DNA of 64,000 nt. It comes from Pseudomonadota bacterium. Its GTDB lineage: Bacteria; Pseudomonadota; Gammaproteobacteria; Steroidobacterales; Steroidobacteraceae. The stretch lies in the NCBI GenBank assembly GCA_025355105.1, contig JANYAE010000006.1:1-64000 (forward strand), read 5' to 3'. Below the pieces are notes generated by a model. It was not told the DNA's origin. It did not search any database and saw only the letters and a program-made list of their open reading frames with translations. This document shows positions 10,961 through 14,230 of this stretch, piece after piece. The position numbers were made by a program, and so were the translations under genes. How positions within the stretch are numbered: the first letter of the stretch is position 1; every line of letters starts with the position of its first letter.

Positions 10961-11659
10961 CTAACCTGGGGCGGCGCCGGCGGTGACCGGCTGCGACGGT
11001 GTGAGGCGCTCAAGCGCTGCCTTGACCGCCGTGCGTGCCGACTCCGGGGTGAGTTCGCCGCGGTTCACGCGGGTGACGATGCCTAGGATGGCCTCCGCCT
11101 GCGCCGGGTGCAATTCCCCGAGGCGCACCGCGATCACCCGGCCCTGCTGGTCCGTGAACGCCGTGAACGGGAAGGCCATGGTCGCGACGCCGAACGCCTT
11201 GGCCGCCGCGAGTCCGTCCTCCTCGCCGATCAGCAGCGGATAGCCGATCGGGACGTCCTTCGTGAAGGCGCGCACGTCGTCGGCAAAATCGACCGCGATA
11301 CCGACAACTTCGAAGCCGTTCGCGGCGTAATCGCCCCTGATCTTGTTCAGCAGCGGGATCTCGTGGCGGCACGGCGCGCACCAGGTGGCCCAGAAATTGA
11401 TCACGAGCGACTTGCCGTCCCAGTCGGCCAGCGAGCGCGGACGGCCGTCCAGGTCCTTGAGCGTGATGTCCGGCCGGCGCGCTGGGACGGTCGGTGCCCC
11501 CGCCGCAGGCGTGAGCGTCGCAACCGCCGCCCGAGCGCTGACGACAGTCGCCGCGACCGGGGCCGGGCGCCAGGCGCGGTCGTAGACGAAGGCGCCGAGC
11601 ACGGCAGCGCCGAGCGCCGCGAAACCGAAGTACGCCAGCGTCAGCGGCCTCGAGCTCAA
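10961..11659 (-). CDS. TlpA/ResA-like membrane-anchored thioredoxin
   Basis: 232 residues. An N-terminal hydrophobic segment (LAYFGFAALGAAVLGAFVYD) acts as signal anchor, and a thioredoxin domain follows from about residue 60 with WATWCAPCRHEIPLL containing the redox CxxC. The cis-proline region (MAFPFTAFTD) and WDGKSLVINF are typical of the TlpA/ResA group of periplasmic disulfide reductases. The C-terminal 30 residues are variable. Its start overlaps dsbD by 4 bases, suggesting that it receives electrons from DsbD. The target is unknown; cytochrome c maturation or general disulfide reduction are both possible. Confidence 0.92.
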   Translation of the reverse strand: MSSRPLTLAYFGFAALGAAVLGAFVYDRAWRPAPVAATVVSARAAVATLTPAAGAPTVPARRPDITLKDLDGRPRSLADWDGKSLVINFWATWCAPCRHEIPLLNKIRGDYAANGFEVVGIAVDFADDVRAFTKDVPIGYPLLIGEEDGLAAAKAFGVATMAFPFTAFTDQQGRVIAVRLGELHPAQAEAILGIVTRVNRGELTPESARTAVKAALERLTPSQPVTAGAAPG

Positions 11660-13875
11660 GGCGCTGCCTCGAAGGCGCTGAGATGCGCCCGGAACGGAAC
11701 CGCTGCGACGAAGCCCACCAGGCGAAAATCGGTGCGCTCCTGGCCGTCGGCTGCAAAGAAGGCGGTGGTCGGCGGGCCGATGATCCGAAAGCGCTTCAGC
11801 AGCGCCTGGTCGTCGTCGCCGTTGGCGGTGACGTCCGCCCGCAGCAGCGCGTAGCCGGCCAGCGCAGCACGCACCGCCGGGTCACTGAAGGTGTGGGCTT
11901 CCATTTCCTTGCACGAGACGCACCAGTCGGCGGAGAAGTCGAGCATCGTGCGCCGGCCGGCGGCGGTGGCCGCCGCCAGCTCCCGGTCGAGGTCGGCGAG
12001 GTTGCGCACCGCCTTGAAGGGTAGCGTCTCGATGCGCGTCCGCGCGCCGAGCAGGCCGGTGCCGTCCAACGGCTTCAGCGGGTTGGTGCCGCCGGCCAGC
12101 CCACCGATCGCGATCAGCAGGCCATAGGCGCCGACCGCCGCCGCCGCGATCCAGCGCGGCACGGTGCGCCGTCCGCCGCGCAGGCCGACGCTGAGCACGA
12201 CCCAGACCGCGACCCACGCCACCGCGCTCCAGGCGAGCATCTCGACCCGCGCCGGCAGCACGCGGTCGAGCATCCAGGCGGCCACGCCGAGGAACACGAC
12301 GCCGAAGATCGCCTTGACGGTCTCCATCCACGGGCCCGCCTTCGGCAGCAAGGTGCCGGCGGAGGCGCCGACGACCAGCAGCGGCGTGCCCATGCCGAAC
12401 GACAGCGCGAACAGCGCGAGCGCCCCGCGCACGACGTCGCCGGCCTGGCCGATCACGGCGAGCGCGGCCACCAGCGGCGGCGCGACGCAGGCGGTGACGA
12501 CCAGCGACGACAGCGCGCCCATGATCGCGGTCGAGATGAACTTGCCGCCGCGGATCCGGTTGCTCGCGTCCGCGAAGCGCGTCTGCAGCCCCGAGGGCAT
12601 CTGCAGTTCGTAGAGGCCGAACATCGCCAGCGACAGCAGGACGAACAGCAGCGCGAACACGACGATGATCCACGTCTGCTGGAAGAAGGCCTGCGCCTGC
12701 CGGCCGGCGAGCGCAAAGACGGCACCGGCGACCGTATAGGTCAGCGCCATGCCGAGCACGTAGGCAAGCGACAGCGCGAAGCCACGCCCGGGGGTGATCT
12801 TCTCGCCGTCGCCAGCGATGATTCCCGACAGGATCGGCACCATCGGCAGGACGCACGGCGTGAAAGCGAGCAGCAGACCCAGGCCGAAGAACGAGGCGAT
12901 CACCACCAGCAGGTTGCCGTCGCGGATCAGCCGCGCCAGCCGGTCCTGCTCCGACACCGGCGCGCCGCCACCACCGGCGTTGCCGGCAGGCAGCGCGAGC
13001 GAGATCAGCTGGGTCTGCGGCGGGTAGCACAGCCCCTTGTCGGCGCAGCCCTGGTAGACGACCTTGAGCGCCACCACGCCCGGCGCGGGTCCGGAGCGCG
13101 CGTACGGCACCGGCAGCACGAGTTCGCCGCGGTAGATCTGCTGCTCGCCGAAGTAGTCGTCGCTGTGCGGCAGTCCCTCCGGGAAGGCCGGCGTGCCGAG
13201 CGCGGCGAGCGTGCTCTCGCCGCTGACCTTGATCCGGCCGCGGTACAGGTAGTAGCCCTCGGCGATCGTCCAGCTGAGACGGATGCTGCTCGCGCCGTCG
13301 GCGCTCGCCGCGAAGCGGAAGGCCTCGTCCACCGGCAGGAAGTCGTCGTCCGCGGACGCGCTGCGCGGCACGAGCTTGGCGAGCAGCTTCCCGGCAGGTG
13401 GCGCGCCGCTCGCCGCGGCGACCGGCGCCGCGGCGAGCGCGACGTGCGCCGTCCAGATCTGCGGCGGGTAGCACAGCCCCTTGTCGGCGCAACCCTGCAG
13501 CTTGAGCTTCAGGTCGATCGCGGCCGGTGCCTTGCCGGTGAGCGTGTAGGGCACGCGAAAGGCCGCCGCGCCGCGATAGATTTCCTGCTCGCCGAAATAG
13601 TCGTCGTGGTGCGGCAGCCCCTTCGGGAAGTCCGCCGCGCCGAGCGTGATGCCGGGCGTCTCGGTCGCGAAGCTGATGCGCTGGCGGTAGAGGTAGTAGC
13701 CCTCGTGGATGTTGTAGGACACGACCAGCGAGCCCGGCTCGGTGGTCAGCGCGTATTCGAAGGCCTGCTCCACCGGCAGGAAGTCCTCCTCGACGGCGTA
13801 CGCCGCCGGCGCGGCGACGAGGGCGAGCAGGACGGCAAGCGCGCGGGCCGCGCGGTGGACGGAACGGATGTTCAT
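11656..13875 (-). CDS. dsbD: thiol:disulfide interchange protein DsbD with two N-terminal domains
   Basis: 739 residues from MNIRSV; E. coli DsbD has 565. It carries electrons from cytoplasmic thioredoxin to the periplasm. Order: signal peptide (about 1-28); a first nDsbD domain starting EDFLPVEQAF with Cys pair GCADKGLCYPP; a second nDsbD domain starting DDFLPVDEAF with the same Cys motif; an eight-helix membrane domain with FTPCVLPMVPIL and VTACVAPPLV (the two membrane cysteines); and a C-terminal thioredoxin domain with DWCVSCKEME. The extra N-terminal domain explains the added length. It follows cutA by 7 bases, the usual cutA-dsbD order. Confidence 0.96.
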   Translation of the reverse strand: MNIRSVHRAARALAVLLALVAAPAAYAVEEDFLPVEQAFEYALTTEPGSLVVSYNIHEGYYLYRQRISFATETPGITLGAADFPKGLPHHDDYFGEQEIYRGAAAFRVPYTLTGKAPAAIDLKLKLQGCADKGLCYPPQIWTAHVALAAAPVAAASGAPPAGKLLAKLVPRSASADDDFLPVDEAFRFAASADGASSIRLSWTIAEGYYLYRGRIKVSGESTLAALGTPAFPEGLPHSDDYFGEQQIYRGELVLPVPYARSGPAPGVVALKVVYQGCADKGLCYPPQTQLISLALPAGNAGGGGAPVSEQDRLARLIRDGNLLVVIASFFGLGLLLAFTPCVLPMVPILSGIIAGDGEKITPGRGFALSLAYVLGMALTYTVAGAVFALAGRQAQAFFQQTWIIVVFALLFVLLSLAMFGLYELQMPSGLQTRFADASNRIRGGKFISTAIMGALSSLVVTACVAPPLVAALAVIGQAGDVVRGALALFALSFGMGTPLLVVGASAGTLLPKAGPWMETVKAIFGVVFLGVAAWMLDRVLPARVEMLAWSAVAWVAVWVVLSVGLRGGRRTVPRWIAAAAVGAYGLLIAIGGLAGGTNPLKPLDGTGLLGARTRIETLPFKAVRNLADLDRELAAATAAGRRTMLDFSADWCVSCKEMEAHTFSDPAVRAALAGYALLRADVTANGDDDQALLKRFRIIGPPTTAFFAADGQERTDFRLVGFVAAVPFRAHLSAFEAAP

Positions 13876-13882
13876 GCAGAGG

Positions 13883-14230
13883 TCACCGAGGGCTGAAGCC
13901 ATTGCTAGCAAGAGCGCACGGGCCGCGCGTCGGCCGTGCCAGGATCATCGGCACCTCAACCGCGAGGCGCTCGCGCACGCGGCGCGCGAGCGCCGGATCG
14001 CCCGCGATCGGGGCCAGAACGAGCGGCAGCGCCTCGCCGGCCTGCGCTACCGGGCCTTGCCACCGGTAGGTAGAGCGCGCGCCGGGCAACTGGTTCACGC
14101 CGGCTGCGCGGTCCTCGGCGAGCCGTTGCCGGGCGACGGCCGAGGCCGCGGCCGGCGGCAGCGTCTTGAGGACCGACAGCGCCTCGGCGGTTGCGGGCGT
14201 GGCGCCCGGATCGCGGCCGGGGCCCGTCAT
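13883..14230 (-). CDS. cutA: divergent CutA-like protein
   Basis: 115 residues that align to CutA1 by pattern: LSVLKTLPPAAASAVARQRL for the first strand and helix, AAGVNQLPGARSTYRWQG for the conserved A-C-V-N-x-x-P-G-x-x-S-x-Y-x-W-x-G block, and VEVPMILARP for the VPEIL strand. The usual Cys of ACVN is Gly here, and the I-K-T strand is poorly kept, so metal binding may be lost. CutA is a small trimeric protein linked to divalent-cation tolerance. The place before dsbD is the classic one and supports the call. Confidence 0.72.
   Translation of the reverse strand: MTGPGRDPGATPATAEALSVLKTLPPAAASAVARQRLAEDRAAGVNQLPGARSTYRWQGPVAQAGEALPLVLAPIAGDPALARRVRERLAVEVPMILARPTRGPCALASNGFSPR

Follow-up and report, generated by a model that had tools for sequence, protein, structure and literature searches.

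A gammaproteobacterial DsbD with two redox-active N-terminal modules, and the link between the doubled form and the TlpA/ResA/CcmG-like repertoire

A 739-residue protein encoded in the window, by which is meant the whole 64,000-nucleotide stretch analysed here, is an authentic DsbD with a doubled periplasmic output domain. The doubling is genuine, ancient and frequent among gammaproteobacteria, not a peculiarity of this locus, and it goes with the genome-wide count of TlpA/ResA/CcmG-like proteins, not with the adjacent gene. Judged by their sequences, the outer module (M1) and the membrane-proximal module (M2) are old, diverged, position-specific paralogues across the class, and M1 would most likely be an additional output arm through which more kinds of client can be served.

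The protein is read from a single open frame on the minus strand, starting at ATG, with an alternative in-frame TTG start upstream at 13911; its features are collected in Table 1. Pfam finds two DsbD_N stretches (whole-protein E 2.6e-63), one DsbD_TM (PF02683, residues 323-540, 2.2e-91) and one Thioredoxin_7 (residues 625-708), and each module alone exceeds the Pfam cut-off, with 114.2 bits at 12997-13347 and 106.3 bits at 13444-13788. Likewise, the NCBIfam model for DsbD, PRK00293, scores 709 bits against a cut-off of 330. The sequence and fold features that define the family are all present: a membrane domain with two redox cysteines (C341 and C463), a C-terminal thioredoxin domain with a CxxC motif, which matches cDsbD structures at 3e-27 by sequence and several of them in fold at TM 0.93-0.96, and an N-terminal Ig-fold domain with a C-x5-C pair and a cap loop, which occurs twice. 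Pfam and the sequence thereby bear out the original prediction of two consecutive nDsbD modules, adjacent in one frame and both with intact Cys pairs, ahead of one membrane and one thioredoxin domain; the motif GCADKGLCYPP is found in both (Cys 129/135 in M1, Cys 277/283 in M2). A search of the source assembly with the PF11412 profile returned no other DsbD_N.

Table 1. Features of the doubled dsbD gene and its two neighbours (positions in the window)
Feature	Position	Strand	Basis
TlpA-like membrane-anchored thioredoxin-fold protein, next gene in operon	10961..11659	-	ORF, Pfam, NCBIfam
dsbD with two N-terminal redox modules	11656..13875	-	ORF, Pfam, NCBIfam
C-terminal thioredoxin domain, residues 625-733, CVSC at 652-655	11677..12003	-	Pfam, sequence and fold matches
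Membrane domain DsbD_TM, residues 323-540, invariant C341 and C463	12256..12909	-	Pfam, alignments
Module M2, membrane-proximal DsbD_N, residues 178-296	12988..13344	-	Pfam, predicted fold
Cys pair of M2, C277/C283 (CADKGLC)	13027..13047	-	sequence, alignments
M1-M2 linker, low-confidence, residues 149-177	13345..13431	-	pLDDT <50 at 152-176
Module M1, outer DsbD_N, residues 31-148	13432..13785	-	Pfam, predicted fold
Cys pair of M1, C129/C135 (CADKGLC)	13471..13491	-	sequence; invariant in alignments
Signal peptide, about residues 1-27, predicted helix 3-20	13795..13875	-	sequence, structure model
cutA, just upstream of dsbD	13883..14230	-	Pfam

The surroundings are those of an ordinary dsbD locus and not of an extra copy, since E. 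coli likewise has cutA beside dsbD and groES/groEL a few genes away. Here the TlpA-like gene is followed downstream by aroQ, accB, accC and prmA, with groES/groEL divergent. The stop codon of dsbD overlaps the TTG start of the TlpA-like gene at 11656-11659 (TTGA, minus strand), an arrangement compatible with translational coupling. The adjacent TlpA-like protein had been suggested as a possible target of one of the arms. However, such a gene adjoins dsbD almost as often in single as in tandem genomes (42/65 against 58/80, Fisher p=0.37), and the neighbour was accordingly rejected as the partner of the doubling.

A search for other doubled DsbD proteins, with mapping on a tree as had been suggested, showed the arrangement to be widespread in Gammaproteobacteria. 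Within the genus of the window, two DsbD_N hits in one frame were found in 13 of 14 genomes, the fourteenth (83% complete) having none. Most genomes of the order are tandem, but the family also includes several single-module genera. Among the 184 genomes of the class sample, 39 outside the order are tandem by sequence, and in about 14 others two hits together with a long frame suggest the same. Of all genomes sampled from the class, no less than a fifth to a third have the doubled form. Outside the class, no adjacent DsbD_N pair was seen among the matches listed for the phylum sample. The same architecture with both Cys pairs, and no essential difference from the window protein, is found in Luteimonas cucumeris (L129), Lysobacter gilvus (L132), Thiomicrospira microaerophila (L139), Guyparkeria (L163, L172) and Marinicella marina (L156); uncultured carriers belong to Methylococcaceae, Woeseia and Thiobacillus. 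When a tree is built from the membrane and thioredoxin domains, tandem proteins are scattered among single ones; the pattern takes 27 changes, and supported branches make at least 10 of these unavoidable, which indicates that the doubling was gained or lost repeatedly. Two DsbD frames of 889 and 999 aa (L101, 2561-5227, and L053, 121-3117, both on the minus strand) have roughly 270-290 codons in front of the first module found. This stretch may conceal a further or a diverged module, or may be no more than an upstream continuation of the frame.

The client repertoire was then compared between the two genome types. DsbC was present in 75 of 80 genomes tested and DsbE-family proteins in all 80; as DsbC and CcmG are near-universal in tandem and single genomes alike, their presence or absence does not explain the doubling and was rejected as its cause. 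The source genome itself has DsbC. No DsbE/CcmG above the TIGR00385 cut-off was found in its 91%-complete assembly (G000); another genome of the genus (G010) has one (3.8e-50), and the absence in G000 is probably an assembly gap. Conversely, the number of TlpA/ResA/DsbE-like proteins does differ. In the first set of genomes the median was 9 hits in tandem against 5 in single genomes, and the family averages of TlpA/DsbE-like hits were 9.5 against 5.4 (size-adjusted t=4.5). This excess was first noticed by eye and was then stated as a prediction before a second set of 80 other genomes was scored, in which the architecture of nearly all genomes was taken from hit counts and frame lengths and not from sequences. 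The second set gave 8.7 against 4.6 hits, or 8.7 against 5.6 when size-matched (t about 3.9-5). PGLS on the gene tree yielded t=2.8-3.9 for lambda from 1 to 0.25, and independent phylogenetic pairs, few in number with 6 on supported branches, gave a median p of 1. Overall, TlpA/ResA/CcmG-like proteins are about 1.75 times as numerous in tandem as in single genomes, a difference that held in the second set and after adjustment for genome size. Tandem genomes also have 1.62-fold more c-type cytochromes and 1.31-fold more cytosolic glutaredoxins, while DsbA, to our knowledge not a DsbD client, is 1.06-fold and not significantly different (p=0.78). As c-type cytochromes are also more numerous, a difference in respiratory lifestyle may well confound the comparison; with c-type cytochromes, glutaredoxins and DsbA all included as covariates, the tandem term keeps t=3.1.

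In E. coli, oxidised nDsbD takes its electrons from cDsbD and then, with the cap loop in the open state, reduces DsbC, CcmG and DsbG (PMC7347389). By analogy with this chemistry, each module of the doubled protein would be expected to be reduced by cDsbD and to bind clients. Electrons would pass from cytoplasmic thioredoxin to the membrane domain and on to cDsbD, which would reduce either nDsbD module, and each module would then bind oxidised clients in the periplasm through its cap loop. Because M2 is like most single-module proteins, it is regarded as the standard arm, presumed to serve DsbC and CcmG; M1 is regarded as a second arm, and the two would work in parallel from one common electron source. 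That the output domain was duplicated long ago, and that M1 supplies either more capacity or another docking surface, chiefly for clients of the TlpA/ResA/CcmG class, is the reading we hold to be probable, if by no means assured. The original idea of one membrane module feeding two output arms therefore stands in part: two intact redox modules do share one membrane module, and two arms are the best reading of this arrangement, whereas the adjacent TlpA-like protein as target falls away. The excess of TlpA-like proteins suggests what the second arm may be for. A more specific reading, in which the outer module is an old paralogue dedicated to the TlpA/ResA/CcmG class in a large part of Gammaproteobacteria, kept by client-rich genomes, with single forms such as that of E. 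coli as a reduced state reached by repeated loss, is tenable but doubtful. Many single-module genomes keep both DsbC and CcmG, which indicates that M1 is dispensable over evolution.

The distinctness of M1 and M2 was assessed with profiles of the two modules in 5-fold cross-validation, the profile difference being scored on held-out proteins. The difference was larger for M1 than for M2 in 96 of the 97 tandem proteins, the window's own included, with means of +15.4 bits for M1 and -11.9 for M2; the window's M2 is weakly M2-like (+4.6). Single modules are mostly M2-like (55/74), and M1-like ones are found in Ectothiorhodospira as well as in Rhodocyclales and other betaproteobacterial lineages. 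Lone M1-like modules in L144, L151, L157, L165, L175 and L166 (Ectothiorhodospira, Zoogloea and other betaproteobacterial lineages) suggest loss of M2 or a hybrid module. Four single modules (L093, L073, L151, L179) have N-terminal, middle and C-terminal thirds with opposite M1/M2 signatures, which could be traces of recombination between the modules of a tandem; the mixed signatures are few and the pattern is too weak for singles to be claimed as recombinants. A first FastTree of the modules showed an apparent clean M1/M2 split, which blurred once more singles were added. The free module tree has no clean split and 11 changes on a short alignment of 119 columns, on which a single clade of all M1 was not rejected (p-AU 0.248). 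The cross-validated profiles are thus better evidence for distinctness than the module tree. Among the columns that separate M1 and M2 best are positions beside the active site, those of E. coli Y100 and K115 (numbered by counting): the former is Y/F in 95% of M2 and S, Y or L in M1, and the latter is K/R in 78% of M2 and often W or Q in M1.

These differences bear on whether the doubling is a matter of dosage only, with equivalent modules that raise the local concentration of output domains per membrane unit and no client specialisation. The two modules of the window do share fold, Cys motif and cap-loop aromatic, one module is enough in many genomes, and clients are more numerous overall in tandem genomes, all of which would fit. 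However, pure dosage predicts drift or homogenisation of the modules, whereas they are distinct by position throughout the class and differ beside the active site, and we regard this explanation as unlikely. That the sites are conserved in both modules while the modules diverge by position is in keeping with two arms whose docking differs in part.

The geometry of the protein could also suggest a serial relay, in which cDsbD reduces M2, M2 passes electrons to M1, and M1 reaches clients further from the membrane. Over 101 tandem frames the M1-M2 linker has a median of 32 aa and the linker from M2 to the membrane domain one of 39, so that M1, on the somewhat shorter linker, is the distal module. 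Such transfer between nDsbD modules was not found in the DsbD literature examined, where oxidised nDsbD is said to receive electrons from cDsbD alone (PMC7347389), and the cap loop, which admits cDsbD, is kept in M1, about 80% of the M1 modules having an aromatic residue (F/Y) at the F70 position. A relay seems slightly less likely than dosage.

An AlphaFold model of the whole protein, computed with an alignment of 39 tandem homologues, has pLDDT of about 88-98 across both modules, and values <50 are confined to residues 21-30, near the N-terminus, and to the M1-M2 linker. Folded in isolation, M1 reaches pLDDT 95.3 and matches the nDsbD crystal structures of E. coli and Neisseria at TM about 0.80-0.85, including those taken from complexes with cDsbD, DsbC and CcmG. 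The C-x5/6-C pair is kept in every module of the 97 tandem and 74 single proteins. The concern that M1 might lack the nDsbD fold or its Cys geometry is thereby set aside, and with it the idea of M1 as a degenerate module. The same data make it improbable that M1 is a structural or metal-handling addition and not a redox arm, as may hold for the tandem Ig-fold domain of ScsB. This reading draws on the solved tandem N-terminal region of ScsB (PDB 6c29), a Foldseek match here, and on the copper(I) binding reported for S. Typhimurium ScsB (PMC8900818), but the M1 Cys pair is kept in 97/97 tandem proteins and the match of M1 to nDsbD (TM about 0.8, E about 1e-11) is much stronger than that to 6c29 (E 2e-3).

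The modules had also been described as alike in DNA, which is true (67% nucleotide and 53% amino acid identity between M1 and M2 of the window) but is weak evidence for recency. The same codon is used at 50 of the 63 residues common to both modules, where 41.5 are expected from codon usage, and the likeness is at a similar level in a sister species; it is accounted for by common protein sequence and codon bias. Third-base identity between M1 and M2 is about equal to that between orthologues and does not indicate a recent copy. Local gene conversion around the Cys motif of the window modules is possible. The weakly M2-like score of the window's M2 (12988-13344), shifted toward M1, and its high identity to M1 (13432-13785) may reflect partial homogenisation within the genus. 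A recent duplication, gene-conversion product or assembly artefact confined to the source genome is hardly credible and is refuted as the main explanation, since the M1-M2 identity, the second highest among the 97 tandem proteins (median 41%), the K common to both motifs and the up to 34 identical nucleotides around the motif are set against an identical arrangement in other genomes of the genus and across the class, distinct M1 (LQGC...W) and M2 (YQGC...) signatures kept within the genus, and the orthologue-like third-base identity.

The biochemistry of DsbD is based on the single-module proteins of E. coli and Neisseria. If two output modules with different surfaces are common, the choice that nDsbD makes among DsbC, CcmG and DsbG becomes testable within one molecule, and the link with TlpA-like counts amounts to a prediction of the purpose of the extra arm. 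This comparative link, which is new here, is of greater interest than the single locus. The tandem layout itself is visible to domain databases. It had been allowed that doubled forms might already be well characterised in the clade; no functional study of a doubled nDsbD was found in the open-access library searched, and the doubled form seems to be unstudied. Sequence searches of the PDB returned no solved DsbD structure that contains the tandem.

Compared with known systems, the window protein has the core architecture of E. coli DsbD (1L6P, 3PFU, 1VRS, 1JZD, 1Z5Y), with both Cys-bearing membrane positions, the CxxC thioredoxin domain and the same nDsbD fold and Cys motif; the difference is that E. 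coli DsbD has one N-terminal module and the window protein two. ScsB resembles it as a membrane reductase of the DsbD family whose periplasmic Ig-like domain is doubled; only one of the two domains of ScsB is known to carry the redox Cys pair. In phmmer and profile searches of PDB sequences with the tandem region, the significant hits were DsbD N-domains only, and none was to the alpha domain of ScsB; by structure the two proteins are distant, Foldseek matching 6c29 at E 2.9e-6 for the whole model with TMt 0.32 and at 2.2e-3 for M1. The closest described precedent for the doubling is nonetheless the tandem immunoglobulin-fold N-terminal domain of ScsB from Proteus mirabilis (PDB 6c29; Furlong et al. 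2018, cited in PMC9675693).
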